From Moniliella sp. 'wahieum' (taxonomy: Eukaryota > Basidiomycota > Moniliellomycetes > Moniliellales > Moniliellaceae): 64,000 nt of DNA. The stretch covers positions 806,001 through 870,000 of the forward strand of contig RSEE01000013.1 in NCBI GenBank assembly GCA_003971905.1, in the 5' to 3' direction. Below, piece after piece: positions 3,204 through 62,775 of the stretch. How positions within the stretch are numbered: the stretch's first letter is position 1; every line of letters starts with the position of its first letter. The position numbers and the translations under genes were made by a program. The notes beneath the pieces are model-generated. The model saw nothing but the letters and a program-made list of their open reading frames with translations, was not told where the DNA came from and did not search any database.

Positions 3204-3218
3204 TTCGCCCCCGAGTTC

Positions 3219-29058: not shown

Positions 29059-29562
29059 CCTATCTGGGAAGCTGTATGAGGCTGGTTCTTTTCCAAAACG
29101 ATGCTATGCTCGATCCATCAAAGATAGGCTCTGTTTGCTCACGCTTGGGGCTGAGGGCGAGAACGAGGAGAAGCGAGTGGGGGTGTGGGGAGGGCGGTAT
29201 ATAGCACTCTGTTCACCGGAGCTTTCGCCAGGCCAACTGTGCAAAACGTTCGCGATGGAGTAAAGGTTGAGCAACTAGTGAACATTGAACGTTGAACATT
29301 GAATCGATTTGCTTTGAAAGTTGCAGGCTGCGACAGGATCTGGCCGATACACGCTAAGCGCTAAACCTTCATTTCATTTCATGCACTGATCGATGCATAT
29401 ATGCCTCCGCTCGCCTTTCACGTGGCGTGGGGTAGCAAAGCCACCAGAGCTGCCTCCTGCCCTCGTCGGATCATCCACCGTCGCCCTCAGCGCCCCCGCC
29501 ACCACCCCGGCCGCTCCCTTGCCTAGCACCCCCACCCCGCCCATGGCGTAGCATCCCTGGCC
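29059..29562. other. intergenic, between DOHH and the hydrolase gene
   Basis: 504 bp with the TGAACAT/TGAACGT heptad array at 29279-29306. The right part is C-rich and leads into the start at 29563. No gene seen. Confidence 0.5.
29279..29306 (+). repeat. TGAACAT/TGAACGT heptad array, four units
   Basis: Units in 7-bp register at 29279, 29286, 29293 and 29300: TGAACAT, TGAACGT, TGAACAT, TGAATCG. Heptad family with tetramer ACGT and variants. Confidence 0.85.
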
Positions 29563-32500
29563 ATGGCGACCCCCTACTCGGCCGGACAGCTAGCCCGGCG
29601 TGACTCCCTTCGCCGCCCCCTTGCCCCTGCCCCCTCCGACCTCACCATCAGCACCAACACCAGCACTAGCACAGCACCAGCACCAGTCTCAACACCAGCA
29701 CCAGCCCCAGTCCCAGCGCCGCCCCCGGCCCCACCCGTCGCGTCGCCGCCGCCTCTCCCCGCGTGCCGCCACCCCTCCTCCTATTGCTGGCGGAGTGGCA
29801 GTGACCGACATTTTCATCCTTGCTCTCTCGGGCATCCTTGCCCTCCTTCGCAGCCTTCCTCTTGCCGAGCTCTTCGACTTTGTCATGGCGCGGCCTGCAA
29901 GCATGTACGTGATGATTTCTGCCCGGCTTGTTTCACTGGACGCGTCTAGTTTCTCGGACCTAACCTAGCCTCCCCTTCTCTCTCCCGTTTCAGCTACCGC
30001 GGTCCTACCACCGTATGTCCCATGTTCCATCTCAGCCGTTTGGGCGGGACCGATCAGCTCTGGGCCCACCAGGTCTCAGTCTGCGTCCGCCAAAGGGGAT
30101 GCTCCCCGCCGTCGAATCTCCTCCCGTCGTATGACGCCGCACCAGTCCCTACCAGCACTCCCAAATCTGGAATCCGCCGCTCCCACTCTTCCGTCTGCAT
30201 CGGACCCCCCCAGCCTTACTCGCACCCCTTCCCCATGTCAAGCAGCAGTACTCCGCCCATTTGGCTCGGCGGAAGCAGTCCACCCACTGCCCTTGGCCCT
30301 CTTCCGGGCCCACTTGACCGCACCAATCCCCATGCGCTCCCCTTGGATTTATGGAGTCCGTCGGACGACGCTGGATCCGAGTCGGAGCCTGAATCGGAGG
30401 CGAGCATTCTGACTACTGCGGGCGAGGCACGCATGACCCTCTTCCATCATGTTGTCCTTGTCTTGGCTCGGTTTGCCTGTGAGAATTTCCCGTTTCTTGT
30501 TCCTCGCGTCCTGCTGTCGGAGGAACAATGACGCCCTTTGTGCGCTGGCGCACCGGCGGGGGGGCTGGAGCATTGATCCGTGAGTATGGCCCAGATGGGT
30601 CCACGGACGGATGTTCGTCGGGGTCAGCCCCGAACAAATCGTTCCGCGCCTATTGGATCGGAGGGGATAGCCACCTGTCTTCGGAAGTGCGAAGGAGCGA
30701 CCCGGCAGGGCGCCAAGCCACGACCATCGTTTGGATCCACGGCGGGGGCTTCGTGCTAGGCAGTGTCGCCTTTTATGCTGAATCGCTCTTACGCATCTTG
30801 GCCAAAGTCTGTGCGATAGAGCACGATGCGGCAGTGAACGAGGGTGCCCCGCCCCCCTGGCCTGAAGCACGGTGCATCGCCATCGAGTATAGCCTCGGTC
30901 CCAACGCCCGCTTCCCTGACGCTTTGCTTGAGTGTCTGCGGGCCTACGCCCATTTGATTGAGGTAGAGCGGATCGACCCTGAATCCATTGTCTTCGCGGG
31001 CGACAGCGCAGGAGGCAACTTGGCCCTTGCCATGATCCTCGCCCTGAGTGGACAAGGTCAAGACCCGTCTGTATGGGACGAACGGGATTGGTCCGCCCTC
31101 CCGCTGCCGGGCAAAGCCGTGCTTCTGTCTCCCTGGGTGGACCTTCGACCCAACGAAGCTATGGCCTTTCAATCCCTCCGCCCAGAATCTGCCCCCGGTC
31201 CTTCTGCTGGTGAAGCGGAGCCCACCGAGTCAGAATCTTCCTCCGACGAGACCGAAACGGGTCGGTCGGAAGAGCGTGGGTTCGACAGTGACAAGCAAAA
31301 GTGAGAACCCAGGGACCGACTATTTGGCGCCTGAGGGGCTGCTGCACTTTTCCCAAGTCTATTCAGGTGTTCTGGACACTCCTCGGCGGGTCAGCGGTCC
31401 AGCCGGATGGATTGCAGGGCTATTGCGGAAACTCGACACGGCACCGGCGGTCGAAGCGTTGGATGCATTTCTTCCTGAGGCCAGCCGGGGAATGGCTTCC
31501 TTCGGGCGATCAGTGAGTAGTGCGGTGTTGAGCGTGCTTGATGCGCCTCTGTTTGAGCGCTCTCTTCCACAAGAGGGCAAGAACAGCTCAGCAGTGATCA
31601 TCCCATCCAAGGCTTACTTTGGCATGACCCCTCTCTTGGGTCCATCAGAGCGGGCTTCAAAGCCAGTACCCAGTTCAGGCGAGCTGTACGAGGCAAGCCT
31701 GGCGTTCGGGTCAGGACGCGGCCAAGAAGCCGATCGAGAAGCCGATCGAGAGCTGGATGCACATGAGCTAGCAGCAGAAGTCCAAGCGGATGAGCCATTA
31801 ATGTCTCCCGTAGCTGGGGATTGGTCTCAGATTCAACTGGCCCGCGGGATGGTGGCTGTGTACGGCTCGAACGAATTGCTCGCCCCTGACATTCAACGGT
31901 GGTGTGAGGCTTCAGGTGCGCGGTCAATTGTCCAGCATGGGCCAACGGGCGTACATGCCTGGCCGCTGGTCAACATGTACATTGCTGGTACCCCCTATGA
32001 ACGCGAACGAGGATTGGACTTGGTGGCTCGTGCCATGGCTCGGGTCCGACGAAGCTACCGTCGTCTACCGGAGCAGGACTTTTATTCCCATCCTGGCTCG
32101 TCCCCCAGCGTCGAGTTGTCGCCGGGATCCATGCCTTTGGACGCGTGGACCATCGACAGTCCCAACCTTCCCCAGGAGGCGCCGCACATTGCGTATCCGC
32201 CCGACTATCCTTTCCCCCTCTTTGGCGACACGCCCAGCGAGCCCACCCCCTCCGATAGCCCTGCAGGGTCTAACTCGGACGGGGAAGAGGATGGCAACAA
32301 GCTGAGCGGTACGCCGCTGGACACGTACCCCCTTCGCGTCCCCTTGCTTCCTCAAGCGGCACCAGCGCATGGTGGACCAGCGTGGCGCTTACTCCTCCTC
32401 CCAGTCACAACCCGTCGCACCCCCTTGAACCCATATCGGAACATGCCTTCACACCCCCCTCCAGTTGTACGAGACCCGCTCCTACGAGACGTACGTCTCG

Positions 32501-32906
32501 ATGGGTTGTCAGACATCACGGAAAGACGGAAATTGGGAGTGTCAGTTCTCCCCCCGAACTGCTCGCCCGCGCAAGCGGGAGTGCATTCGGCCTCCCTAGT
32601 TTGGCCGCAGCGGCTACCGCCACCACCTCGACTGCGGGCACGCCGGACATGGGACCGGCTTTGCATGTCCAAGGCTTGGGCAGAGCTGGGGACAAGCTTC
32701 GTAGTTACCTCGAGAAGGGACCGACCCCAACGCTGACGCGCCGTCTGTCGGAACCTCGCGCCGCGCTGGCTCAAGTTCCGGAGACGTATGGTGGTAGTGG
32801 TGAGTACGGGGTTGCCACCATGTTGCAAGCACGCATGCAAGCACGCATGCACTTGTACAAATGGACTTTGGATGTGGCGCACGTATCTAGTGCGTTGCGA
32901 TTATGA
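29563..32906 (+). CDS. alpha/beta hydrolase fold-3 protein (esterase/lipase-like), membrane anchored
   Basis: The ATG at 29563 starts a disordered Pro/Thr-rich tail, then a hydrophobic helix (VTDIFILALSGILALLRSL, adjacent frame). An intron (GTACGT near 29907 to CAG near 29994) follows. The catalytic domain shows the oxyanion motif IHGGGFVLGS (near 30735), IAIEYSLGPNARFPDAL, and the nucleophile elbow GDSAGGNLAL (near 31001). An acidic Ser/Glu-rich insertion (about 31190-31300) interrupts the fold. The later part holds VAVYGSNELLAPDIQRW, fitting the catalytic Asp/Glu region, and GVHAWPL with the likely catalytic His. A long disordered C-terminus ends at 32906. The layout resembles fungal steryl-acetyl-hydrolase/HSL-type proteins with regulatory insertions. 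Several frame changes occur, near 30530, 31190 and 32560. Confidence 0.75.
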
Positions 32907-34055
32907 CTACGATCATCGGCTCTTTTTCTTTGGTTTGGGTGTTGGCCCTGGGCCCTTTGATGATGTTCGGCTTACCTGTGTCGCATTCGTCTGGCTTCTT
33001 CATGAATCTGGGGAGTATTCCGATGTCAATAGTTTATCCCTACGACAGCGAAATCACTTGCAGGGCGCCTGCTAGCCTGGGAGTTCACTGTTCAGTGTGT
33101 AGTTTGCTTTATAAACGTGGATATCCGCGCAGTGCGTAACACGAATGTCCTGTTCTCATGCTCGCTCCCCCGACGTGGCCGGCGGGCCTCGCCCCAGCCG
33201 CCAGCAGAGATGTGCGGCAGCTTGCGACACCCGCCATGGCGCCTGAGCGATTCGTGAGAGTATCGTCGAAACCTGTTGATGAGTGTCATGTGCTGTGGCA
33301 CATCAATCTGGCGGTAGCCAACTGGCAGTCGTATAGCGGCGGACTTTTAAGGGGCACAGCATTCTCCAGCGCTAATGGTGGAAAACTCATTGACGTAGAG
33401 CTACGATAGGCCCGAAGAAGGACTTTGACTCTTTACCTCTTCGTTCATCAGCAATCCTCGAATCTAGTACATCTTCCGGTATTTGCGTGGTGGGGCGCGG
33501 GTTTACCGTCATCAGGTTGTGAGAGCACATATAACAAGCGTGAATTGCATGCATATACTGTTGCCTCCGTCCTACACCCCGCCTTGATTTACGTCCATCC
33601 TCACCGCAGCCGTCAACTAAATCAAGGCCCCTGTGGTCCGGCCATCAACAGAGTCCGTCGGTTCGCTATAAGGGGGTGTGCATCAGGGGAAAATAACCAA
33701 ACACTTGCACTGTTTGCGACGGTGGATCATCCCCTAGGTGCTACTGGCCATTCTGGGGAAGAGGGATAGGTCGATCACGTGCCAGAACCCTAACGTGTCA
33801 CCATCCCCAGCGGGTGTGTTGCTGCGGCGCAATCTCCAAATCCCTACTGCAGTAGTGCTGCCACTCGATTATTTTACAGCCGAACCCTATTTCTGTCTCC
33901 GCCACCGAGGCCATCTCCGCTGTTGGCGCTGTGCCCCCCACCCACTCAACCACAAGACCATCAAGGCTCGACTGGTGAGTAAGAGCTCCGCCAAGCACGC
34001 CCTGCCACCGCTCCGGACGCTAACGTTGCCCGTTATTCCCCTGACACAGATCAAA
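32907..34055. other. intergenic and eL6 upstream region
   Basis: No gene supported. The 3' part includes the eL6 leader with an untranslated-region intron at 33975-34049 (GTGAGT...CACAG), ending six bases before the ATG. Introns near the start codon are usual in fungal ribosomal protein genes. Confidence 0.6.
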
Positions 34056-36320: not shown

Positions 36321-38080
36321 ATGGTAAAACCGGTGAAGTATCAGATGCTGGCGGTCATGTGGGTGGCTGCCCTGGCCGTGCGTCTGCTCAATGCCGCAAC
36401 CGTCACCACCTACTTCGTCCCGGACGAACACTGGCAGGCCCAGGAGGTCGCCTACTCGCTCGTCTTTGGTGTAGGGTACCGCACATGGGAATGGATTCCA
36501 GCCTCCCACTGCCACCCCCTTCCTTGCCATTTGTCTTGGGCCGAGGCGGTACGCACTGGGCCTCTACGCAGCCTGCTCCCAGCCCTGCTCTATGTGCCTG
36601 CCTACTGGTTCATCCGTCTCGGCATCACTTCCCCTTGGCTCGTAGGCGTCGCGCCTAGAGCCACGCAAGCTCTGATTGCTCTGTAGGAGACGTGTTTTCA
36701 GCGGCTATTGCAGCGGCTGCCGTTCCAGGATCTGGAATGGCGGCTTTCGTTCTGTGCCTTTTGTCTCCCTGGCTTGGTTCACCTCGACGCGCACGCTGGC
36801 AAACTCGACCGAGGCAGTGCTCCTATTGGTATCCCTTTATTTTTGGCCCCTGGACCTATCCAGACGTAGGAAGAGGGAGAAGGCAATGGTTGCCCTGCTG
36901 ATCGCAAGTTTTGCCCTCCTCGTTCGACCTTCCACCGGGGTGATCTTTGCTTATTTGGGTGTGCGTACTCTCTTCTCTCTGCTGGCGGGATCCACAGCAC
37001 GTTGAGGTTCCTCCTGATTAGTGCTACTATGGTTAGCACAGTGGTTGGTTTCAGTGTGCTAGTGGATTCCTATTTCCACTCGGAACCAGCCGTGCCCATG
37101 TTGGCCTTTGGGCACGCAATTTGCTCCAAGGGCTGGCGACCTTCTACGGCACCGCTCCGTGGCACTTTTACCTAACTCAGGCTCTTCCACTTTTAGGTGG
37201 AGCCAGCTTGTTGCCTGCCTTACAAGGAGGAGTCAAGGCGCTGCGGGCGAAAATGTACGCACCCCCCCACGCCGGAGGTCAGGATCCTCTTCTCCTCCGG
37301 GTGGTGCAGAGGTGGGGTTACTCTATCTTCTGCTCCACTCCATTTTGGGACATAAGGAGCACCGCTTTGTGCAACCAATTGCCTACTTCTCTCCCATCCT
37401 GGCCTCCTACCACATCGCCTTTAGTGGAAGGTGGCCAGCGCGTACAACACTTAGCATGACCTGGCGTCGCTTCTCCCCCATTCTGCGAGCAGCGCTCCCA
37501 CTTGCTTTTGTGGCCGGTATTTACCTGACCTCGGTTCACCAGCGCGGGCAAGCCCTGGTGGTACACGATATTGCTTATCTAGCGCGGCAGGGAGGTGTGC
37601 ATTCGGTTGGCTGGCTGATGCCCTGCCATAGCACACCCTGGCATGCTTCACTTCATACCCCCTCTGTACGATACGCATGTTGACGGGGAGCAAATGCGCA
37701 AAACCTGGTTCCTCACATGCTCCCCGCCCTCCTGCACATCCGAAGGTACCAACCTGGCCTCTTCCTCTGAGGAGTACTTGGACCAAGCCGACCAGTTTTA
37801 CCTCGACCCTGCCGCGTGGTTACACAGCGCCATGGCTGACCACGTCGACCCCACCTTCCCTCCTGCCCCAGCTCATCTCTTCCGCTCTCAGCGGCAAAAG
37901 CAAGAACGCATTCCTTGGCCCAGTCACATTGTCTTATTCAACGGCTTGCTTGCCTCGCCCCATGTCGAGCAAATTCTGCAGCAACAGGGGTACCACCCCA
38001 TCTTATCCCGCTGGAACGCCCCCGTGACGGATGATTGGCGACGCTCTGGACGCCTCGAGATCTGGGCTTGGCGACCATGA
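36321..38080 (+). CDS. GPI10: GPI mannosyltransferase 3 (GPI10/PIG-B, GT22)
   Basis: ER multi-pass enzyme that adds the third mannose to the GPI-anchor precursor using dolichol-phosphate-mannose. From 36321 (MVKPVKYQML) TM1 leads to the luminal motif TTYFVPDEHWQAQEVAY, diagnostic of the GT22 family, and YRTWEW. Later: SLAWFTSTRTLANSTEAVLLLVSLYFW, LLIASFALLVRPSTGVIFAYL, and NLLQGLATFYGTAPWHFYLTQALPLL-type segment near 37115. The family motif HKEHRFVQPIAYF lies near 37350. LMPCHSTPW near 37617 and a C-terminal globular part with HIVLFNGLL end at 38080. The frame changes near 36684, 37000, 37110, 37320 and 37640; no splice sites fit most of these, so they are likely base-call indels. Confidence 0.92.
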
Positions 38081-38453
38081 CGCGCAGAGTTTCTGTCTAT
38101 ACTGCCTACTGCTGTATAGATTGGATTATGTTTATTCCCCCTATTGTCCCCAGCATGGACGATGTGATTGCAGCTATAAACAAAGCTTTTTGGGTTCTTT
38201 TTGCTCTTCTTCGATCGTCATGTGAACCGATCTCTTAGGATATCCGTGGAGGAGTACGAGAATGATCGACAATGTTATTGTTACGCGTTAACCGTCAATG
38301 ATGCAAAGTGTAACATGTACAACAGCAGATAACACTTTCTAACTGAGAAAGTGGTAGTCCTCTCTATCCACAATGATTATAATGACGAAGAATTAAGGTG
38401 ATTAACCGGCCTGAGGCTGAAACCTGTGAGAGGCGCGCTGTCGCGGGACTGCT

Positions 38454-38481
38454 TGAATCTTGAAGCTTGAAGTTTGAAGCT
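38454..38481 (+). repeat. TGAAGCT heptad array, four units
   Basis: Units in register at 38454 (TGAATCT), 38461 (TGAAGCT), 38468 (TGAAGTT) and 38475 (TGAAGCT). Heptad family with tetramer AGCT. Confidence 0.85.
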
Positions 38482-38973
38482 TGACCACAGAGTGTGAGTA
38501 CTGATTATAGGCATATACTATGTGGCTGCGCATTTCTTTCCTATATCCCGTACCTGAAGAACTGTAAAAAGAGACGAGGCCATACATTACTCAGTCAATG
38601 TATCAAGCGACCGAAAGCCGATCAAGAAAAATCAAGCGCTGCCCTGAACGCCACGTTTTTGCTTACCACTGTTGGTAGTGTCTGACAATCAGGGGTCGAA
38701 GATCATGATCTCCATGTTATCAATCAGCGGTGAATCACCGTTTCCTGCCCTGCACTGTACGGCCGGCGGTATTCACTTCAGCGACTGCATTGATTGTATG
38801 GCGTTCTTTGTTGGGCTGTGGCATGCAATGACCAGTATGTATCGCCATCACCACCATTAACTTCGTCCTCGGGATCGCGTGACGAGTATACCTAGTATAA
38901 TGGGCACAGTGTGGCATGAAACATGGCATGCCCCCTCCCCCGCGCGCAGAGAAGGAATTACATATGCGGCTAT

Positions 38974-39028
38974 ACTCAGTACTCACAGTACTCTCATCAG
39001 TACTCAGTGAGTAATACTCAGTACTCAC
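38974..39028 (-). repeat. TGAGTAC heptads and palindromes
   Basis: On the minus strand TGAGTAC-type units recur several times, with inverted partners (CAGTACTCAGTGAGTA). Heptad family with tetramer GTAC; same motif as at 22980-23012 on the other strand. Confidence 0.8.
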
Positions 39029-39184
39029 TTTATATATACGTCACTTCTATATATAGGTGAGTCCCTGACGCAGACGGGGGAGGAAGATTCATGCGCTCAA
39101 TATGTGCATCACATGCACATATTTCTCTTGGCCGGCATATGTTATCACGAGGAGACCACCGGGCCTACGGCCCGGTCTGCTGCG

Positions 39185-39436
39185 TCGCCACCGTAGCCAC
39201 CGTTCCCCCTTCGCCACCTTAGCCACCGTTCCACCGCCGTTCCGCGGTCCACCATTGCCACCTTAGCCACCGTTCCCCCCTTCCCCCTTGCCACCTTAGC
39301 CACCGTTCCACCGTTCCCCCGGTCCACCATTGCCACCTTAGCCACCGTTCCCCCCTTCGCCACCTTAGCCACCGTTCCACCGTTCCCCCGGTCCACCATT
39401 GCCACCTTAGCCACCGTTCCCCCTTCGCCACCGTAG
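39185..39436 (+). repeat. minisatellite of about 69-75-bp units
   Basis: Long units begin CCACCATTGCCACC at 39249, 39324 and 39393 and are built from sub-blocks GCCACCTTAGCCACCGTT and CCACCGTTCCCCC. A minus-strand frame through it encodes a repetitive Gly/Val/Lys peptide, which is a by-product of the repeat, not a gene. Confidence 0.9.
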
Positions 39437-39555
39437 TTATAATATCACCGATACGCGCTGGCTGGGGTGGCTGGGGTGGCTGGCTGCGCCCCCGGTGGCT
39501 TACGCAATGCTGATGTAAAAGAGTGGTGCACACCCCGTTTGGGATTCTAATATAT

Positions 39556-39631
39556 CCCCTGCAAGATGAACGATTAGGTTTAGACGTAGCGTTCCCCCTG
39601 TCCCAGCCTTAAGCTCTGTCAATGAAATGGA
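39556..39631 (+). repeat. 75-bp direct repeat, copy 1
   Basis: About 90% identical to 42856-42930; shared core TTTAGACGTAGCGTTCCCCC. The partner follows a reverse-transcriptase-like relic, so this may be the 3' tail of a 5'-truncated element. Confidence 0.9.
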
Positions 39632-39639
39632 CGTGGTCT

Positions 39640-39722
39640 AGAGATGTCATGATCATGTCATCGATGTCATCGATGTCATCCCGACATGATGCACATGATG
39701 TGATCGACCTGATCACAATGTA
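39640..39722 (+). repeat. ATCGATGTC repeats and TGATCA palindromes
   Basis: Two consecutive 9-bp units ATCGATGTC with adjoining CATGATCATG and CATGATGTGATC. Built from the same small palindromes (TCGA, GATC, CATG) as the heptads, but with a 9-bp period. Confidence 0.7.
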
Positions 39723-40135
39723 ATTATGCGCGCCCGTAACGCGTAACGAGGACTCTCCTCTTGATCTCGTGCGCCGCCGACAATAGTACTATATGAGCCA
39801 TGATGCCTGTGAGGCCTGAGGCGAAACAAGGGCATGTATGGCACAGTAGAGATTCGTTTTCTTTTTCTTTATGTGGGGGTTAGTATGTTTAGTACTTATA
39901 CTGTGGGAACTGACTATGCTATTAGCCAACACAAAGGGGAAAATATATGGAAAGGAACTAACGAACATTGAATTCGGAGAAACACGCCACTGTAGCTGGT
40001 CAGGCAAACCGACGGAGAGGGTCCGGCCTGGGATTTCCCGGACCCTCAGCTCAGCGATCAGGACTCAGTGTACTCAGTGGTCATTTCGGGAGAAAGGATC
40101 AATTGACCCTTGCATGGCTTAACCTCTGTGGGCGC

Positions 40136-40156
40136 TGAAGCTTGAAGCTTGACGCT
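40136..40156 (+). repeat. TGAAGCT heptad array, three units
   Basis: TGAAGCT at 40136 and 40143, then TGACGCT at 40150. Heptad family with tetramer AGCT. Confidence 0.8.
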
Positions 40157-41298
40157 CGAGCGCCAGAGTACCTGGATACATCCTGAAGGGAATCTCACTT
40201 GAAAATCTCACCATCAACCCATTATGATGAACATTGAACACGGTCATCTCATTCCCCAAAGTCCCTCTCGAATTTGGATGGCCGCCACTTTGTAGTATAT
40301 ACATAAACTATCTCGAATAATTAAGTAACCCTCAAGACAAGCCACAACTTATTCCCTTAGACCTCGCAGGCCTGACAGGAGGAGAAGGAGCCAGACGCTG
40401 CGGAAGAGCGCTAGAGGTTTAATAGGGGACGTGAAAAGATTAGTGGGGGTGTACCATGTAAGCCTTTGGATGGGCAATCAGAGCTACACAACGCGGTATA
40501 TATGTGCTGCTTTTGCATATAGATGGTTGTAGTGAGCAGAAACTTTAGAGGCGTGTAAAAAAGGCATGAATAAGGGAGAAAAGGGTACGATTATATCACT
40601 CCTATGATAGTCTACAGAGAGATAGAGCGCCGGTGTATTTGGTCTTCAAGAGGCCACATATAGAAAAGGCGCGCTGTCTCTGTCGTGACGTTAGTACAGC
40701 TTTCGCAGGAACAGTAGTGCAGTGTATAGACTCTCGATGTGTTGGGGAAAAAAAAAGAGATGGTGAATAGGCCTATAATATCAATGGAAAGCACCAGGTA
40801 ATAGTTAGAAACGAATCTAAGTGTCACAGTCGGGGCTAAGGCGAGGGAGACCAGAGAATCGGGACTATAGGCCAAGGGGTAGCAATTGTTCGTGGGGAAG
40901 GAGCAGAGCAGAGGACATGGTGCAAAGTGGAAGAAACAGGGGAGGAGCGAGACGCTTGAGACGAAGAAAGAAATAGGAGCGAGATCAGCTAAACTATGAC
41001 AATAAGCGTTGCCGAGACTGAGCACTGATACTGGAGTATATAGATGAGCGGTGCATCAGCCAAGGCTCTGGATGCAAACCAAGGGAATCAACACGATTAT
41101 TATGCTATATACGCACCACAGTCATGATGAGCACAGCTGCCACAAGTCTGGTCTTAGGATATAGCAGAGAGTGCGGGTTTTCGATGGTGGACAGTGGACA
41201 GTGGACGGAAGGGAGAGGGATTGTTGATGTCCGGATATGTTCGGCTGACGCGGCAATAATGACGAAGATTCATCAGGCCTCGAGCACGATCGTAACGG

Positions 41299-41541
41299 AC
41301 ACCTTTAATGATCCTGGCTACCCAGGGATGTCCGAAGTGCAGTCATGCATGGTAGAGAGAGAAGACAGGAGCTGATGGGTTGAACCCAGAATGGGGATCA
41401 GAAGGAGAAGGAAAAAGGAGGAGAAGGAGAAGAAGGAGAGTGGCACAAGACTACAGGTTGGGGATACTGGCGTAGTGCCCGGATGTGTAAGAGGGTTACG
41501 GTGACCTCGGAGGTGGCTGGCCCTTAGGACCCTAGTTAACC
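41299..41541 (+). repeat. dispersed repeat, copy B
   Basis: Homologous to 17965-18200 in the same orientation. It ends 55 bp before the first frame of the relic at 41596, so it could be part of the same mobile element. Here the GGGTTGAACCC palindrome lacks the extra 7-bp unit present in copy A. Confidence 0.85.
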
Positions 41542-41595
41542 ACCTCTCGTCTCCACTCGGGCACGTCTACACACTTTTGTAAATGGAGAGACTTT

Positions 41596-42834
41596 ATGAA
41601 GGGAAACATGTCTAAGTTTGATGGCATCACCCGCCAGGGACGCCTCTTACTATGGCGGCTCAGTACTCAGACCAAGCTGCGCCACCTGCTCCGCACCATG
41701 CAGATGGAAGGAGAGCTAGATGACGTGCTGGCCGAGATTGATGCCTTCATCTGTACGGATTCAGACGGATCCGGGGTGACGAGGATCCCCAAGGTGCCAA
41801 GGACGACCACTTCGACATGCTCATGAGCCTGCCTCTCCGAATGGGAGGATGTGGCAGCCCGCTTACTCGTATATCGCGCCCCACGCCCGTGCCGCGGCCA
41901 ACGAAGTCAACGACTATCTTATTACCACTTATGTTGACCGTTCGGGACCGCAGACGGCAACGGCCAACACATTTACGAAGCAACGCCAGCGCTGCCGCGA
42001 GATGTGGGAGCAAAGTCGACAGGAGCTGCTCCAGGCTGGACGCTGCCGCTGGTCGCCATGTGGTTGAGCATAGCAACCCGCTGAGCCACAACTGGCTCTC
42101 CGCCATTCGTCCGTCCGTACCTCAAGCTCTCTGACCAGCAGGTCCAGGTTGGTCTCCAGCTCCGCACACTGTGCCGCACCACGGGCAGCATGTGCAAGTG
42201 CGGTGTCATGTCCTCGCTGGAGCACATCATGTCTGGCACCCCCACCCAGGCCAAGTTTAGTGCGTTGCATGAGGCATGTGGGGCCCATTCTCCAGCTAAT
42301 ACGCTCCATCCCCGACACTCACGTCCGCAACGAACCTATGGTGTGGAGGACGAGGATGGGACGAGACGTGGACCGAGGGCACAGCGCCCGACTACCGCGT
42401 GAAGGGGCCTGGAGCACTGGGAGGGATCAGGAATGGAGGTGGACCACACGCTGCGCGACACGGGAACGCAAGACGCGCAGAGCGCGTACCGGCGGTGGTG
42501 CACGAGAGCACTGCGTCGCCTTTGGAACGCCGGGAGAAGGAACTGCTTCGGCTGCTTCACAAGCAGAATGCGACAAGAACGCCAAGTACCAGGGACGCAC
42601 TTAAAGCCGTTTTTTCCCCCTGGTTTTGACGCCGCCGAGGATACTACGGCACCAAGGCAGCGGGCAAGTTGTTTTGCGCATTGGAAGGAGTTGGCTACTA
42701 AGTCTCAGTGGAAAGGTTTTCTCTCTCGGATGTCAACCACGTTCATCCGTGTCCACACGCGCTTCCTAGGGTACGGGACCGGATGGCGAGAGCCGGAGGG
42801 TCCTGATATCCTGGCGATCCCCCTGGTTCCTTGA
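41596..42834 (+). pseudogene. degenerate relic, possibly the C-terminus of a LINE-type reverse transcriptase
   Basis: Coding-like pieces follow one another in different frames: MKGNMSKFDGITRQGRLLLW (41596), then VNDYLITTYVDRSG, then LQLRTLCRTTGSMCKCG...SSLEHIMSG near 42150-42240, then THVRNEPMVW and VDHTLRDTGTQDAQSAYRRW near 42320-42490, ending at 42834. The order Cys-x-Cys with EH, an EP motif, an RPD-like motif and a D-x-T-x-RD stretch resembles the region after the palm domain of non-LTR reverse transcriptases. No reverse-transcriptase palm motif is seen here. At least four frame changes. A divergent host gene cannot be excluded. Confidence 0.35.
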
Positions 42835-42855
42835 CCTTAGTGCGCTTCCAAGTAA

Positions 42856-42930
42856 CCCCCGCAAGATGAACGGTTCGGTTTAGACGTAGCGTTCCCCCTG
42901 TCCCAGCTTAAGCTGTGTCAATGATATGGA
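42856..42930 (+). repeat. 75-bp direct repeat, copy 2
   Basis: Matches 39556-39631. Begins 22 bp after the stop at 42834, in the position of a 3' untranslated tail of the relic. Confidence 0.9.
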
Positions 42931-44196
42931 TTCAAAGAGGAGTGTGTTCAAAAGACATCCAGACCCAACTTCAGCTTCATGACGCTGAAGCATTAAGGGC
43001 CATATTAGTTTGGTCGATCTCGCTCCCATTTCGAATTCTTCGTCCCGAGCGTCTCACTCTTTAGTTCTTTACCTTCACACCGTGCCCTATGCTCTTGCTT
43101 CTTACCCGCCAACGATTGCTACATTCCTTACCGATTGATACATTCCTTAACTTAGTCTCGATTCTGGCCTCCCTCACCGGTCACCTTCATGCCCTGCGAC
43201 TTGTGGTGGACCCGTAGCCATCACTAGCGAAAACGTACACCGCCTCTCTCTTGGTTCCCACTGCATCCCCACATCCACCACCGGAATCTCAATGCGAGAC
43301 GTTGGTTCGGCCAGTCGGGAACAAAGGTGGGGGGCAGCGAACATGCGAGCATTGAAGTGGGCCAAGAGTTGACTCTCTGTATTAGAAATTTGATCTTCTC
43401 GTTGCTACGCTTCTCTCTCCTTGGTACGTGTGGGACGGATGGGCAGAGGGCCGTGGTGTTCCGTATTCCCTCACTCTACCACCAGTTGTGCTCCACAGCC
43501 CACCGTTCCCTTCTTACCACTGTGCACAGCGTGCTATACGCGTATTTTCTGTCACATACATCGGATTCCTCCCTGCGTCCCGTCGTTACTTTCCGTCGTT
43601 ATTGGTAAGTATTGCACATCCCGTTGCTTCCCTGGAAGCCGACGTGAGGCAAGACCCAAAAAGTGGAGCAGAAGCGAGCAACAGGTGATGTGTGGGGGGA
43701 AAACCAACCTGAGAGCCAACTTTCCCCCCGACTCCCCACCCACCCTCGCTGGGAAGAAGAGTGTCAAAAAAGTAACGGATGGGTATGAGTGAAGAACGGG
43801 CGGGCAACAATCTATGTTACAGGTGTTGAACGTTTTGATGTGGCAGTTGATGAGAGCGATGAAATGATCGTTCCCAAGGTTGACGCTAAGCCGATATGGA
43901 TTGGATGAGACATGCCCCTCTGCGGCAAAGGTCTTCGTTACAATCCTGGCCTCGTGGTTGTTCTTTTTGTTAAGTCAACGGCCAACGTTCAAAATGGTTT
44001 TCATGAAACGCTGCGGCTATACATGAAGGGAACCGCGTCACGGATCGTTTCCATTTGACATGGCACCTCTGTCGGGTTGAACACTAACATCTTACAGAAG
44101 ATTTCACTCGATCTCACAAGCGTCGAAAGCTAAGTTTTTTATAGCTTCTGCTAAGCTTTCAGCTTCTATACTACTTTGAATACTAACACTGCTTGT

Positions 44197-44231
44197 TTAA
44201 CGTTGAACGTTGAACGTTGAACGTTGATCGG
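44197..44231 (+). repeat. TGAACGT heptad array, five units
   Basis: TTAACGT at 44197, then three perfect TGAACGT at 44204, 44211 and 44218, then TGATCGG at 44225. Heptad family with tetramer ACGT. Confidence 0.9.
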
Positions 44232-44410
44232 CCTTTCTTGGTAACACACCTATGTCTTTACCCTCTGTTGGTTCGCTACAATCACGCATCGTATACATCA
44301 CCTGCTATTATCTCTTCTTCGTGCATCTCGCGCCATCAACATCATAGATTATCGATTGAATCAGGAAAGGTTTACTTGAACGGATTGCCGGATGTGGTAT
44401 TTAAGCTTCT

Positions 44411-44447
44411 AGTTACCGGTAACCGGTAATCGGTAACCGGCAACCCC
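44411..44447 (+). repeat. GGTAACC-type heptads (TAA plus CCGG)
   Basis: Repeated GGTAACC/GGTAATC words in 7-bp register around an ACCGGT palindrome. Related words occur at 17460-17600, 22563 and 47555-47575. Confidence 0.75.
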
Positions 44448-45177
44448 GTAATCAGATAGTTACTCGTTTTAGTAGTTACTAGTTACATGTTACAGGCCAC
44501 AGTCTTCGTTGTAAGAGTCTCTTGTGTCTTCTATGCACGATTCGCACAGTTACTGGTTAATATACAGTAGACCTAGTGGGCTGCATATATAGTTGAGGAG
44601 CGTATTAGTGGATGGCCAGTTCAGCGTGTCTGACGTCCAGGCCTGAGCCTTCGGCCTCAGGCCTTCTTGCCTTTCAGTTTAGGGAGTTGAGTGGTTACGG
44701 TAGTTGTAGGAACACGTACGATGGGGGAAGGGGGCATGTATAATGATATCTGAGAGAGGATTGCATTATGGGGGAGAGCGACAACAGAAGAATGTTGTAA
44801 CAAAAAAGCTATATACACCTCTCCCCCGTATAAGCGACTATTAGTAATAAGATTGGAAACTACAAGCACTTGTAGAGGAGAGAGAGAAGACGCTCACGAG
44901 GGAGAGCATGCCTCCCTATTGCTATCATGATAAATGGGGTCGTCTCTTCCCCGATCGATGCTGAAGATATCGAGAAGGGGATGGCCTGGACAGGCAGGTG
45001 CCATAATGGGGTACAGTGTCATATACATGCCTCTCGTCATGCGTGACGCATAACTCCATGGCCGCCTTTTTGTCTGTGGCGTACAGACGTTAGAAGTATT
45101 AATCGCGGTTCCGACGGGCATATAGTTCGACCTTTGCGGGGGCCTTGTGTTTCCACGGGCCATATATCCCTCTGCGG

Positions 45178-45262
45178 TGTTGAACGTGTTGAACGCTGAA
45201 TGTACGTTGAACACGTTGAACGTTGAACGTTGAACGTTGAACGTCGAAGCTTGAAGCTTGGA
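45178..45262 (+). repeat. composite heptad array: TGAACGT changing to TGAAGCT
   Basis: Irregular TGAACGTGT and TGAATGTACGT units lead into four close TGAACGT copies (about 45216-45243), then an 8-9-bp step (CGAAGCT) into TGAAGCT at 45252. Two palindrome families meet in one array. Confidence 0.85.
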
Positions 45263-45449
45263 GGTAGAGTAAGTACGTACATGGTAAGGATACGAGTTGC
45301 CACGGATGTAGGCTCAGCCTGAGCGGCTCAGCGCTCATCCTAGCATGTATTACTTGATCAGTGAACAAGGGATGGTCATCGGTCATCTCTGCGTAGCGTA
45401 TTTGTAGTGTGTAGTGGCACGTCACGCGTCAATATTCAATGGCAATTGA

Positions 45450-45470
45450 TGATGTATGATGCATGATAAT
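45450..45470 (+). repeat. TGATGTA/TGATGCA heptads
   Basis: Three units in register at 45450, 45457 and 45464. Heptad family with tetramer TGCA. Confidence 0.65.
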
Positions 45471-45738
45471 CTACTCGTGCTGGAAGCTCTCTGGGGGTGG
45501 CGTTTGATTGCGGTGGCGGAGAGTGCTGGGGAGGTGCAGGCCAAGCGCAGAACTGAGATGGGATGGTCGACGGCCGATAGGACGGGAGGCATGTGCGTGT
45601 GCCAGTTAGGAATGTGTGTGGCCTGGCATAACGGAAAAGGGCGGTGCGTTTTCTTGTATAAAAGAGGTGGGCGGCCGGAAGAGAAGAGAGCACAGAGGAC
45701 TCGCGGTGCGTTATGCATTAAGCCGTCTCCTGCCGACC

Positions 45739-45774
45739 TGAGGCTTGAAGGCTTGAAGCTTGAAGCTTGAGCGG
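45739..45774 (+). repeat. TGAGGCT/TGAAGCT heptad array
   Basis: TGAGGCT at 45739, an 8-bp unit TGAAGGCT at 45746, two perfect TGAAGCT at 45754 and 45761, then TGAGCGG at 45768. Heptad family with tetramer AGCT. Confidence 0.85.
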
Positions 45775-45861
45775 CCGCTGGATCGAGGTGCTGTGGAGGG
45801 GGCTGCGCCTGGCCCCGGTGGCGAGGCAAAAGCTACATACCGTGATGTGTGACATAACCTC

Positions 45862-45910
45862 TGACATGTGACATCTGAGATCTGACATGGGACATGGGAC
45901 ATGGGAAGCT
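45862..45910 (+). repeat. seven-unit heptad array with changing unit (CATG, GATC, AGCT)
   Basis: In strict 7-bp register from 45862: TGACATG (45862), TGACATC (45869), TGAGATC (45876), TGACATG (45883), GGACATG (45890, 45897) and GGAAGCT (45904). Three different palindromic tetramers follow each other. Confidence 0.9.
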
Positions 45911-45941
45911 GTGAGCGGCATTTGAATTCCATGCATGAGCA

Positions 45942-45973
45942 TGATCATGAGCGCCATGAGCGCTGAGCCCTTC
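45942..45973 (+). repeat. TGAGCGC heptads
   Basis: TGAGCGC at about 45949 and 45958, followed by TGAGCCC; preceded by TGAGCATGATCA. Heptad family with tetramer GCGC. Confidence 0.7.
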
Positions 45974-46588
45974 GGCCGGAAGAAGCTTAAGCAGCGGAAG
46001 CAGGAAGCTTGGACATCTTGAACCTTCAAAGCGCCAGGCACTCCGCCTGAGGCTCGTACTTGGCAGTGCTTTGGCACTGAGCCTGAGCGCACACGCCGAG
46101 TGCGCAACTGAACTGAACGTTCAGTACGTTCACGACGCGGCATGCCATCGCCCATCCAGGAAGCTTTGGCGCCTCCCAAGTAGGGCATCTGCCGCTGTAC
46201 GTACGGTGTGTCGCACGTGCCGGCTGACGTTTGTTTGTTTAGTGGCTGAGCACCACCCATCGACCCCATCGTCCATCCATCCCACACCACACCTGAGCCT
46301 CAGGCTGAGCGCAGCTTCAAGCAGAAGCACAGGTACTGAGTACTCCGTCCAGCGGCCGAGCACGATGTGCTGGACGCAAGGGCAGGACATGGCCCTGCAG
46401 GGCCTTGGCAGGGCAGCCCAACTGATATTGGATTTGACGCTGCACCAGCGCTATCGATTATCGGCCACCGGCCACCACATATGACAAAATGGGACGGCGG
46501 GTGCCCTGGTGCCCAGTACGCACGGTACTACACCAGCGTGCGCCAGTGGCGGCGGGCTGGTGGCCACCCGGTGGCGGTGTTCCAGCAG

Positions 46589-46672
46589 TGACGCGTGACG
46601 CGTGACGCGTGACGAGTGACTAGTGATGCATGATGAATGATGAATGATGAATGATGCATGATGCATGATGGT
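46589..46672 (+). repeat. twelve-unit heptad array changing from TGACGCG to TGATGCA
   Basis: An uninterrupted 84-bp array. TGACGCG at 46589, 46596 and 46603; TGACGAG at 46610; TGACTAG at 46617; TGATGCA at 46624; TGATGAA at 46631, 46638 and 46645; TGATGCA at 46652 and 46659; TGATGGT at 46666. TGA is kept in every unit while the tetramer moves from CGCG via CTAG to TGCA. Confidence 0.95.
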
Positions 46673-47847
46673 GCTCAGGTGGCCGGTGGGGCCGCACCAG
46701 CAGGCACTGGGTGGCGAGGCGGGGAAGCGCAGTAGGCGCCGTGGGCGGTGGGCGAAATGTGAGATCTGAGAAGATGTAAACAGGTCCGAGACAGATCAGG
46801 GCCCGTCGCCGGCAGGCGATCGGCACAGAAAACCGTCGGATGATCGATGAAGGGCACGTTGGGGCTGCTGTGGGGCTGATGCACTGATGGGGCTGATGCG
46901 CTGATGGGGCTGATGGGTCAGGCGCTTCGTACATACTCATCAACACACCCTCTCGCACTGTAGTCTCCCCCACCCAGCCAGTCTGCACCACGCAGTCCAG
47001 ACCTGTTGCGCACGCACGTTGCACCATCTGCACCCTGCTTCTCGACCAGAGCACTACATCTCACACATTTGGTGTGCAGCATTCGCCATGCGAGACAGCT
47101 CAGCGGTGAGCCCACCCATTTGCTCACCCTTCACCCTCTCAACCCAACGGCCAACGTTCGAAGCATCAACGTATACGGTTCAAAGAACTCTTCTCTCTCC
47201 ATCAAGCTCAAGCTTCGTCAACGCAACACCACCCCCCGAAACCTTCTCTATTTCCTTGCCCCCCCCCCTCCCCCCCCACCCACCCACATGCACCAAAAGA
47301 TGTGTTGACCCTGCGGCCCTGAAGAGTCTGCCTCAAGCTCCAAACCCTTCAAGCTTTGAACTGCTGGAGCTGCCGGCAGGCCTCTGGTACACAAGGTGGA
47401 TTAATTGGATTGGGGAAGCAACGGGCAAGTGTATAGTGTGCGTACTGTGTCTGTGGCCAAGTGGCCGAAAGCTCGGCGTGAGCGTGTGGCGTGAAGCGCG
47501 AAGCTTCAAGCCTAAGATCTAACTATCTTAGGGCAAAAGCTTAAAACAGGAGGTATAACCGGATAACCGGTAATCGCAGTAACTGGCGGATGGTGACGCG
47601 TGACGACGCGACGACGCACACCGCAATGCAGTCGGTGTGTGGCGGGCTGGGACTGCGAGATCTGAGACTGAGTACTAAAAGCCAATGATTAATGATTCAG
47701 ATTCATTATGCCGAAAGCAGTAGCCGGTGGAGTGGGAGGCAGAACAGGGCAGGGCACGCGAACAAGGCATTAGGCCTAAGGCCTTAGGTGAGAAGAGGTG
47801 TTAGGCAACTGGTCCTGGCTAGATGAAACGCTCCAGGCCTAGGAGCA

Positions 47848-47876
47848 GCGCTCAGCGCTCAGTATCTGGGCGCTCA
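47848..47876 (-). repeat. TGAGCGC heptads, minus strand
   Basis: GCGCTCA on the plus strand at 47848, 47855 and 47870, that is TGAGCGC on the minus strand. Heptad family with tetramer GCGC. Confidence 0.8.
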
Positions 47877-48827
47877 GCCTACTAAGCACGTCAAAAGAAG
47901 GAAGGTGCGCAAGAGTGTTTTGGGGAGGGGGCTGGGCGCAGACATAAAGGTGGCGAAGCGTGCTCAGCTGGGCCTCAGCACTGAGACTCAGTAACTCGGT
48001 GCTGAGTTTACATGCTGTGACATGGGAGTTCACTGAGTGCGGACCGTGACGGTGAGGGGAGGTGGTACCGAGGGTACTGGCCCAGCCACTAATAAGCTGC
48101 CATAATGCATAATCCATAGGCCTTGGGCCTGCTAGGCCTTTTACGCCTTAGGCCTGAGCCTCAGGGAGGCACAGGTGTTGCTAAGCTGATGCGCGGATGG
48201 CTGATGCACCGGTGGGCGACAGACTGCTCCAGAATTTATGGGGCGCAACGCGGCTGGCACTGGGCGCACACAATGCATCACACACATGGGATACTGTGGC
48301 TACGTAGAGCCTCGTGCTACGTATGTGTCCACTGTGTTGACGGTACGTTGCCGGGCAACCACAGGTCTGCTGCGGACAGGGCAGAAAGCAGGCACCAGGG
48401 CAGCGGCCACGCATGGCCGCCCGCGGCGTCCCAAGTTCTCCGATTCCAGCACCCACAACCCACAACCCCAGGAGAAGACGGACGGCGGCGGAGGCTAACC
48501 TGGCGCCGCGCAATGGCACCTCGCACCTGGCAACTGCTCCCAGCAGCCAGCAAGCGCAGGCGGCTATATAGGTGCGGCTGCCAGTACCTCGGCCTTCTCT
48601 CTACCCCACCCCCCTCCGTCTCTCAGTTTCTTCTCTGCGGTTGCCCGGCACTTCTTCTTCTGCTCCACGCGGTGGCGCTCGGCCTGATATCCATCCATAC
48701 CCTCCCCCTCCCTCCCTGCCCAGGCCGTCCCACCCACACCCCCATACCTGCAGCACGACCCCCTCCCTTCCCCTTTTCTTTGTTTCCTTGATTCTCTCTT
48801 CCTTCCCTCCCCTTCTTTCTTTCGCCA

Positions 48828-50832
48828 TGACGACCGCCGCCATTTTTCCGGCCCCCACCGCCTTTACGCCTGCTGGGTATGGTACCATCTCCATCTCCAT
48901 CCCCCTCCCTCTCCGTTGCGCCTTTTGTGCACACTCTCACCCCGGCTTGTTTTGCCAGCTGTCTTCCCCTGGCACCCACGCCCCCCGACGCTGTGACGAC
49001 GCTTCGTCAGGCGCGGCAAGCCCCTCGTCGGACGGTCTGCAAAGCGAACTCGCTCAGCCCTCTGCGCCCCCATCACCCCCCGATACGACTCATAAGCCCT
49101 CGCGCTCTTCTCGCGGCGAGGGTGACGAATGGGCCCCGCGCCCTCCCAATGCTTGGATCCTCTACCGCAGCGATAAGAGCCAGGAGCTCAAGCGCCGCAA
49201 CCTCTCCAACCCCCAAGTCGACTCCATGAGCAGCCGGCAGCGCCAGGCTGAAATGTCGCGCGAGATCTCGGTTCTGTGGAAGAACGAGTCCAAGACCGTC
49301 AAGGACCTGTATGCGCGCCGCGCCGAAAAGAACGGGCAGATCATCGCCAGCGTTACCCCGTATGTTAACCCTCCCCTCCCCTCGCCCGAGCCTCCTACTT
49401 TAGTTTTTTGCCCCTTTTCCTCACTGTGTATGCTGACCGTCTTCTCTCCCCTGCCGCGCAGAACAAGTATCGCCCCAAGCGCCGGGCAGCCGAAGCGAGT
49501 AGGAGTATGTATGCACTGCGGCGTCACAGCTCCTTTGATCCTCTCCAGCTCTCAATTGCGAGAGAGACGGGGTCGATGAGCTCAGGCATGTTTGACCCGC
49601 GCGCTTCCTTGGCTGGCTACACCTCTACCACCCCTACGCCTCCGGCTCCGTCTCTGCACTTGGCAGCGCACGCGAGCCAACAGACCGGGCCGTACTATGT
49701 TCCTTCCTCCTCGGTCGGTTCCTCCTACACTGTCGCGAGTGTACCGGCTGGCCCACACATCGCTTCCACGGTCCAACTGCACCGTTCCACCGCATCTCCA
49801 CTTTCTTCGGCGCACTTGTTCCCCTCCGTGCCCCTTGCATATGCACCCGACTTGGCGCTTTCGGCCCCACCTACGACGGGCCCAGGCTCCAGCGTCGTTC
49901 CTACTTTTCCACGGCCGGTTTCCCAACCCGGTCTATCCTCTCGCCCCTTTTCCTTGGCTACGCCACACTCGCATGAATTTTACGTGACCTCCACCCCGCT
50001 GCCCCTCCTGGGCAAGCCCCGCTTGTCCTCCACCGACTCGTCCATATCGGACCTGGCGCCGTACACGTCAAGCAAGCTGGATCCCCCTTTTCTTCTACCG
50101 GGCTCCTCTCAGCCCCTGACGGCGGCGGCACCGTGCACGTTGCCTCTCAACACACCGCACCTGGATGCGCCTCTGTCCTTGCTGGATCCCTGGGGTAGCC
50201 TGGACCCCGTTGACCCAAACCCACTTTCCGCCCTAGCTTTCCGTCGCACGCCGATCCTCATCCTAATCCTAATCCTCATCCTTATTCCCATTCTCATTCC
50301 CATTCTTATTCTCACCACCCCCGCACCCGATCCAACCGAATGGGAAGGCCACTCGCCCCTCTCGGCTCCGCACACGCTACCCTCTACTACCTCACTGCCT
50401 CTCTTCCCGGCCGGGCTCGTCTTGTCGGATCCTGCGGACCAAGACGGGCCCCCGGTCTTTTCTTCTCCTTCTTCGCCTCTCACTACGTCTACTTCCTCCT
50501 GTTCGCCCCGCCGTCCGCGTGAGCTGTGCTTCTGCGTGGCTTGGTTTTCTCCTGCTTTTTTGCTTTTTTGCTCTCCACACTTGTCTCGCTTTTTGTCTTT
50601 TTTTTGCTCGTTCACGACCCCCCTCTTCTATGCTCGCATCTTGTTGGCCCAGGTTAATTTGTCTCCGTTCCACGGTCGTGCCGATCGATACACAGTTCAC
50701 CGTTCACCGTTCACCGTCCACCCTCCCCCTATGCCACATGCGCCCCTAATAATGCTGCTGTCAAGTCGCCGGAATCAAATGTATTCGCTCTGCCCTTCCT
50801 CGGGCTTTCCATACATGATGCGTCTTCTCTGA
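48828..50832 (+). CDS. HMG-box transcription factor (MATA_HMG type)
   Basis: Nuclear DNA-binding regulator. From ATG 48828 a short exon may end near 48880 (GTATGG) with an acceptor near 48959 (TTTGCCAG). The HMG box reads RPPNAWILYRSDKSQELKRRN, then QAEMSREISVLWKNESKTVK and LYARRAEKNGQ. It is interrupted by an intron (about 49359-49461, GTATGT...CGCAG) and resumes with NKYRPKRRAAEAS, the conserved end of the box. The rest is Ser/Pro/Thr-rich activation-type sequence. Near 50255-50320 a CCTAAT/CCTCAT repeat encodes an Ile-Leu run in this frame but Pro-Asn and Ser-His runs in the next, so the frame and the C-terminus after 50250 are uncertain. Candidate relatives are Prf1- or Rox1-type factors; which one cannot be decided. 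Confidence 0.75.
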
Positions 50833-62754: not shown

Positions 62755-62775
62755 TGATCGATGATCGATGATAGA
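62755..62775 (+). repeat. TGATCGA heptad array
   Basis: TGATCGA at 62755 and 62762, then TGATAGA at 62769. Heptad family with tetramer TCGA. Confidence 0.85.

Follow-up and report, generated by a model that had tools for sequence, protein, structure and literature searches.

The 64,000-nucleotide window analysed here, which derives from the basidiomycete Moniliella sp. 'wahieum' (contig RSEE01000013.1, positions 806,001 to 870,000; G000:C13:806001-870000 in our numbering), features short arrays with a period of 7 bp in which TGA or TAA (TCA or TTA on the other strand) is followed by a palindromic tetramer, and the interval 38081-48827 is rich in them. Here, we show that each array is a stack of 7-bp insertions at a TNA site, that is, the same event repeated, and we weigh the processes that may have left them. 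The genome comprises 69.49 Mb in 223 contigs, and our main sample consists of the window and 26 ten-kb stretches from contigs C1-C12, together 324 kb or 0.47% of the genome; stretches other than the window are labelled L009, L012, L016, L024, L032 and so on, with positions counted within each. The L6e protein of the window hits Tilletiaria anomala at 75%, followed by Tilletia and further Ustilaginomycotina, which indicates a fungus resembling the Exobasidiomycetes. Two entries annotated as Glycine score higher (55-56% identity), and an unnamed contig protein reaches 82%. Below, a run is a tandem of TNA plus palindromic tetramer (pal4) units with the same N, while isolated units are TNA-pal4-TNA outside arrays.

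The arrays reported in a preliminary description of this DNA are present in the window, where 32 exact two-copy period-7 arrays were found compared with 4.1 in Markov simulations, and 20 of these were palindromic (0.35 simulated), all 20 with the form N-A-pal4-T. No excess of palindromic units was seen in the window at a period of 5 (15 vs 13.4), 9 (1 of 12 arrays), or 11 and 13 (none). Twelve tetramers had been counted earlier; the variety stands, while the number was low, as the interval 38081-48827 alone includes 36 runs with 14 different palindromic tetramers, and 15 of the 16 possible are used across the 324 kb. The pattern is not local, since 20 sampled 10-kb stretches outside the window show the same excess (117 period-7 arrays vs 14.7 simulated), with 59 of the 117 palindromic (1.0 simulated) and 54 of these 59 of the A..T form. 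Among TNA-N4-TNA pairs in the 324 kb, N4 was self-complementary in 330 of 840, and the share in the 15 other XNY classes was 3.9-6.9%, the chance level, so that the outcome named beforehand as refuting the pattern, heptads with other lead trinucleotides being equally common, was not observed. At TNA, a spacer of 4 alone is strongly affected; a spacer of 6 gives 15 vs 4.0 palindromic cases, a spacer of 2 gives 120 vs 104, and spacers of 8 and 10 are close to chance.

Pattern searches of the whole genome gave 564 occurrences of TGAACGTTGAACGTTGA vs 4 of its reversed control, and 2,907 matches to TGACANNTGACA vs 118 for the reversed pattern; in the latter, NN was TG, the predicted mirror of CA, in 77 of the first 100 places listed (hand count), where random bases would give about 6. 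For comparison, 100 kb of E. coli K-12 included 5 runs, 2 of them fitting the rule given below and none with more than one unit. The 26 stretches hold 163 runs in 260 kb, or 627 runs per Mb, and by extrapolation the whole genome (69.5 Mb) should hold about 40,000 loci after subtraction of about 2,000 chance runs. The number of units per 10-kb stretch ranged from 1 to 28, and only 43 of 277 units lay inside open reading frames of at least 200 codons, though such frames cover about half of the sequence.

Isolated units reveal how the symmetry arises: it is produced, not recognised, by the process. With x and y as the left flank bases, z and w as the right flank bases and a prime for the complement, an event at a usually asymmetric 7-bp site xyTNAzw adds 7 bp, consisting of a duplication and two mirrored bases from one flank. 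The right type reads xy-TNA-[zww'z']-TNA-zw and the left type xy-TNA-[y'x'xy]-TNA-zw; in the finished sequence, the right type forms the direct repeat TNAzw-w'z'-TNAzw, whose two copies are separated by their final two bases in reverse complement. This form, counted on both strands and with arrays included, occurs 308 times compared with 1.3 in simulations, and every other class gives at most 25. In 133 isolated units the tetramer matched the right flank in 45, the left in 44, both in 17 and neither in 27, and both TNAs carry the same N in 143 of 175, which means that the TNA is duplicated, not mirrored. Isolated products with two mirrored bases were exclusively right in 37 cases, exclusively left in 27, had one extra matching flank base in 21 and were symmetric in 24, with 1.7 expected for all of these together. 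Three mirrored bases were not above chance (1 vs 0.2 simulated), nor were +3, +5 and +11 products once other XNY classes were compared; +11, with both flanks filled, appeared once in one count and not at all among isolated units. Symmetric sites account for 17 of the 106 flank-matching isolated units, with about 7 expected.

Of 60 cases of a 9-bp variant, in which a full 7-bp repeat is accompanied by two mirrored bases, 24 are centred on TNA and at most 5 on any other class, overlaps counted, and based on this TNA-centred repeat the duplicated site is best described as NNTNANN. A 5-bp duplication (TNAzw) was considered and rejected: it covers the main class but fails for the 9-bp class with its full 7-bp repeats. 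Likewise, a 3-bp TNA duplication of the Harbinger/CACTA type was dismissed, as the flank dinucleotides are copied too and TNA-TNA pairs do not outnumber those of other classes. The 89 oriented sites have little in common beyond TNA, weakly RTNAY.

A further hit on the original TNA of a scar, as we call these products, would insert a unit of the left or the right type, and the new TNAs, lying in a symmetric context, would only reproduce the same tetramer. Repeated events at xyTNAzw are hence predicted to give xyTNA[y'x'xyTNA]^m[zww'z'TNA]^n zw, and 181 of 226 runs fit this grammar, compared with a mean of 30 and a maximum of 46 when flank pairs were permuted among runs (2,000 permutations). The fit was 48 of 63 in the window, 133 of 163 in the 26 stretches and 26 of 36 in the interval 38081-48827. 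In all 12 mixed arrays the first tetramer matched the left flank, and in 10 of them the last one matched the right flank, while with the flanks swapped both counts fell to 0 of 12. Mixed arrays made up 6 of 25 two-unit and 6 of 10 three-unit arrays, where equal re-hitting of TNAs predicts 1/4 and 3/8, respectively. Altogether 226 of 11,869 TNA sites (1.9%) carry runs, and 36 of the 226 are multi-unit (24 of these 36 uniform), so that re-hitting is more frequent than expected from single random hits. When a plain 7-bp junction was also allowed, 27 of 76 multi-tetramer grids, including those with non-palindromic tetramers, followed the extended rule (null 2.7, maximum 9; L035 added to the sample), and many of the failing grids start with an unrelated or altered neighbour. 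As plain duplications are not enriched at TNA (see below), the tetramers at such junctions in the arrays at 45862 and 46589 are listed in Table 1 and not used as evidence.

Insertion can also be followed against empty sites in repeat copies. All runs with 10 aligned flank bases in another copy were compared (14 comparisons of 12 runs, with the locus at 1216/1249 of the duplicated regions L036 and L037 entered once), and in 4 of the 12 the partner had a clean 7-bp gap at the scar (Table 1). The clear gaps stem from copy pairs of 76-83% identity. Two further scar loci are common to both members of the 95%-identical pair L036/L037, and the run at window 41660, which differs from its partner by a substitution only, is probably due to chance. 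An 8-bp difference between L036 and L037 (TAAACGTTAG vs TAA) breaks the rule. About 391 TNA-N4-TNA pairs are in excess, of which about 307 have kept a palindromic tetramer, and a rough decay estimate suggests a mean scar age of the order of 6% substitutions. The copies on contigs C5 and C11 (L024:186-8221 and L033), which share about 8 kb at 77-92% identity, offer a useful indel record.

Table 1. Scars, arrays and variants in the window (window positions), followed by scars of other stretches that have an empty site in an aligned copy (positions within each stretch).
Position	Strand	Feature	Remark
38461..38470	+	scar ct TGA AGCT TGA ag, fits either flank	further unit 38475-38484 does not fit
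38976..39027	+	three clustered TCA-GTAC-TCA scars	left, right, left type
39656..39700	+	9-bp variants: two overlapping TGTCATC-ga-TGTCATC, followed by CATGATG-ca-CATGATG	TNA-centred 7-bp repeat plus two mirrored bases
39737..39746	+	scar cg TAA CGCG TAA cg	symmetric site
40136..40152	+	two-unit array TGA AGCT TGA AGCT TGA	flanks gc/cg off-grammar
43174..43183	+	right-type scar TCA CCGG TCA cc	
44204..44227	+	left-type array gt [TGA ACGT]x3 TGA tc	
44420..44429	+	left-type scar gg TAA CCGG TAA	
44476..44492	+	mixed array ag TTA CTAG TTA CATG TTA ca	tetramer 1 from left flank, 2 from right flank
45179..45221	+	GTTGAAC-gt-GTTGAAC and GTTGAAC-ac-GTTGAAC, both 9-bp variants	
45217..45240	+	symmetric-site array gt [TGA ACGT]x3 TGA ac	
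45328..45337	+	left-type scar gc TCA GCGC TCA tc	
45422..45438	+	mixed array cg TCA CGCG TCA ATAT TCA at	tetramers in the order left flank, right flank
45754..45770	+	left-type array ct [TGA AGCT]x2 TGA gc	
45862..45885	+	compound tc TGA CATG TGA CATC TGA GATC TGA ca	right-type, plain 7-bp junction, left-type
46589..46668	+	longest compound array of the window	right-type CGCGx3, CGAG, left-type CTAG, TGCA, TGAAx3, TGCAx2
46760..46769	+	right-type scar TGA GATC TGA ga	
46841..46850	+	left-type scar ga TGA TCGA TGA	
47594..47603	+	right-type scar TGA CGCG TGA cg	
47852..47861	+	left-type scar gc TCA GCGC TCA	
62755..62771	+	left-type array ga [TGA TCGA]x2 TGA	beyond 38081-48827
L032:2081		scar CTTCA-AG-CTTCA, empty in partner	CTTCA in L009
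L009:2774 and L016:2130		scars TCTGA-GA-TCTGA, empty in partner	L032 7 bp shorter
L024:5185		scar TGACC-GG-TGACC, empty in partner	TGACC in L033; extra 3-bp gap nearby

From the observed products we infer a break, hairpin ends and an agent, and we consider it moderately probable that the scars record hairpin-forming breaks left by a transposon whose target-site duplication is 7 bp long and of the form NNTNANN. After a double-strand break, both ends would carry a copy of xyTNAzw, the target-site duplication, and would be closed as hairpins; nicking both hairpins 2 nucleotides (nt) 3' of the tip would leave 4-nt 3' overhangs, zww'z' and y'x'xy, which would lie opposite each other, fill a 4-nt gap exactly and be ligated, and the resulting heteroduplex would resolve to one strand or the other, giving the right or the left type. 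Such a model predicts a gain of 7 bp with two mirrored (P) nucleotides, left and right types in equal number and never both, and at symmetric sites complementary overhangs with perfectly matched joining, and it would explain why both-filled (+11) and both-trimmed (+3) products do not rise above background. The likeliest agent would be a cut-and-paste transposon with hAT-like chemistry, i.e. flank hairpins, and a TNA-cored 7-bp duplication, which repeatedly used favoured sites. Loop-free perfect mirror copies are the signature of closed hairpin ends opened off the tip, known as P nucleotides in V(D)J recombination and also from hAT elements. DDE transposases, moreover, prefer a flexible target centre, and the duplication has a similar feature in its central TNA dyad.

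Several observations weigh against this reading. Regarding the rule itself, 45 of the 226 runs do not fit the grammar, 27 of the 133 units in the flank tally fit neither flank, isolated palindromic tetramers fitting neither flank exceed simulation (29 vs 6.7), and isolated units with one mirrored base, although rarer than those with two, are above chance (24 vs 4.2 simulated). Plain 7-bp duplications without mirrored bases show no preference for TNA (9 of 321, compared with 5-16 per class elsewhere; against simulation, 6 vs 0.5). Among the aligned copies, L035:233 exceeds two other copies of its repeat by 11 bp, a compound event that the simple rule does not explain, and at four of the 12 runs (L012:6437, L024:5113, L033:3883 and window 18039) the alignments were too gapped to read. 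The youngest pair, L036/L037, has gained no canonical scar and hence gives no sign of ongoing activity, and a steady accumulation of scars is not supported; the estimated scar age would suit an element that has died out or become rare, and would also allow for a host process.

The search for the responsible element adds to these points. Profile searches of the whole genome for hAT, MULE, KDZ, Harbinger and Plavaka transposases gave nothing above cut-off. PF14372 (hAT) and PF18759 had no match in the whole genome, nor in any control genome, which leaves absence unproven, and the same zero count in genome and controls was obtained for PF18758 (KDZ). PF10551 had no match in the whole genome, though control genomes matched, and PF13359 (DDE_Tnp_4) had none in the whole genome, with the control positive in 1 of 14. 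PF05699 (hAT) had two sub-threshold matches (best E 0.04), with silent control genomes and thus again with absence unproven; both sit in the two copies of the 95%-identical 4-kb region, L036 (G000:C13:749901-753900) and L037 (G000:C69:123001-127000), whose seven scanned frames yielded only a ketopantoate hydroxymethyltransferase, overlapped weakly by NanE, and an hAT fragment of 11 bits. L036 lies about 52 kb upstream of the window. PF02992 (Transposase_21) had two matches, one above cut-off, and at the C17 locus the element ends could not be read. This Transposase_21 (tnp2) gene at L035 (G000:C17:555301-559300) has a 92% copy on C62 and adjoins a multi-copy repeat and dense heptad scars. Further, scans of the 324 kb for inverted repeats with target-site duplications gave no convincing TNA-flanked element with terminal repeats among the matches listed; in one scan, 9 TNA-centred pairs were found compared with about 4 expected, and the best of these, 29469-33731, was discarded as an element because it lies in a host gene region (alpha/beta hydrolase). 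An inverted-repeat candidate in L032 is interrupted by an 853-bp repeat, and the aligned multi-copy repeats are similar in appearance to long terminal repeats, with two copies showing 5-bp duplications without TNA. A repeat of about 235 bp with TG..CA-like ends occurs at L029:7342-7574, L032:967-1203, window 26508-26744 and L017:7596-7815, with 5-bp duplications in two copies.

RAG and Kat1 are domesticated transposases, and the same hairpin and end-joining scars could have been made by a host or domesticated nuclease that cuts TNA sites with no element inserted. We hold this to be unlikely, even though no transposase family exceeded the cut-off except for one of the two Transposase_21 matches, no convincing flanked element was found in the 324 kb, and multi-unit runs point to repeated hits at few sites. 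Target capture by a DDE transposase leaves just such a 7-bp duplication with a TNA dyad, a plain nuclease needs extra steps for both the duplication and the hairpin closure, no candidate gene was identified, and as the youngest pair of duplicates has gained no canonical scar, nothing shows the process to be still running. In its most specific form, a resident process without any mobile element, a host enzyme would repeatedly make hairpin-ended breaks at TNA sites, these would be turned into 7-bp palindrome-bearing scars under a fixed rule with two outcomes, left or right, and each array would tally m left and n right breaks at its site; to this we likewise give a rather low probability. Template switching during replication, where the nascent strand would turn after two bases and return at the same near-palindromic TNA with no break, would fit the copying of immediately flanking bases and the TNA as the sole clearly common core, yet it appears quite improbable to us: a zero-loop turn within one strand is sterically implausible, CNG, GNC and ANT are near-palindromes as well and show nothing of the kind, the strong preference for two bases over one or three is left unexplained, and the same N is kept in both TNAs.

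Hairpin DNA, which the preliminary description had proposed in the form of hairpin-templated slippage, is retained here as the likely intermediate, but slippage of symmetric repeats as the origin is not: most isolated units lie in asymmetric sites and mixed arrays follow their flanks in order, which is not a slippage product. Ordinary 7-bp tandem duplications that expand by slippage as hairpin-forming microsatellites, like CNG repeats, are therefore very unlikely, even if the unit is self-complementary except for the central N and the uniform arrays may include some slippage growth. Full tandem duplications of 7 bp make up only 35 of 142 isolated units, the stronger stems of CNG and GNC show no unit excess, likewise ANT, and the one-sidedness of isolated units contradicts a CNG-like expansion as the origin. 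Neither a symmetry-recognising recombinase nor a DNA-binding protein, both also suggested earlier, gained support, as the tetramer usually fits a single flank and only the TNA core is clearly common to the sites. Protein-binding sites kept by selection would agree with the location of units mainly outside long frames, but with 15 tetramers in use, most of them predicted by their own flanks, and no clear consensus beyond TNA among the 89 oriented sites, we regard this as scarcely credible. The underlying idea that differing sequences share a symmetry through one generating process has been borne out, the tetramers following their own flanks.

V(D)J coding joints carry P nucleotides from hairpins opened by Artemis; their palindromic 2-nt additions and hairpins nicked 2 nt from the tip are as in the transposon-hairpin model above, but the joints feature no target duplication and no TNA core and are confined to fixed gene loci. 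In CNG trinucleotide repeats and others that form hairpins, the unit is self-complementary bar one mismatch and the sequence is shared, whereas here the flanks dictate the sequence. Excision footprints of Ac/Ds are of the same kind as those of TcBuster. The accessible part of the TcBuster report ascribes hAT excision footprints, which as here consist of a target duplication and a few flank-complementary bases, to hairpin ends and end joining (PMC3499496). The direct duplication of a short site, inserted bases complementary to the flank and insertion relative to an empty site were all found here, but hAT footprints are usually variable, while here one product dominates (+7, two mirrored bases, one side), the scars stack, the duplication is a TNA-centred one of 7 bp, and no hAT transposase was found with profiles that matched no control genome either. 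The hAT7 and Kyakuja transposons of basidiomycetes make 7-bp target-site duplications, as seen here, but their descriptions, as far as the accessible text goes, give no TNA core or footprint rule (PMC12730594), and the KDZ and hAT families were undetected here. PIF/Harbinger elements make a 3-bp TNA/TWA duplication, whereas the present one extends beyond TNA, and DDE_Tnp_4 had no match. The palindromic microsatellites of Fusarium mitochondria are also fungal, but according to the accessible part of their description they are mononucleotide (A)n-(T)n tracts of unrelated structure (PMC7218506).

Hairpin footprints, P nucleotides and the 7-bp duplications of hAT7 and Kyakuja are thus already known, and in the open-access literature, searched with limited terms, we found no description of the two-outcome rule or of TNA-cored 7-bp scars that are templated by their flanks and stacked. 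With this rule an odd repeat class becomes a countable mutational signature, in which about 40,000 loci would record break, hairpin opening and joining at single-base precision. The two-outcome rule would be a direct test of hairpin-end sealing in a fungus, mixed arrays would count independent events at one base pair, and the scars of vanished transposons would be recognisable without the element.

As to the surroundings of the arrays in the window, an Alg9-like mannosyltransferase (Glyco_transf_22) fragment at 37063-37683 lies just before the array-rich interval, and the frame of an HMG-box protein at 48572-49579 (+) lies downstream of it. A minisatellite at 39185-39436, with a 69-bp higher-order unit of GCCACC/TTCCACC repeats, adjoins heptad arrays. 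Additionally, the window includes a Copia-type retrotransposon polyprotein with RVT_2, integrase core and SH3-like domains at 432-3218 (-).

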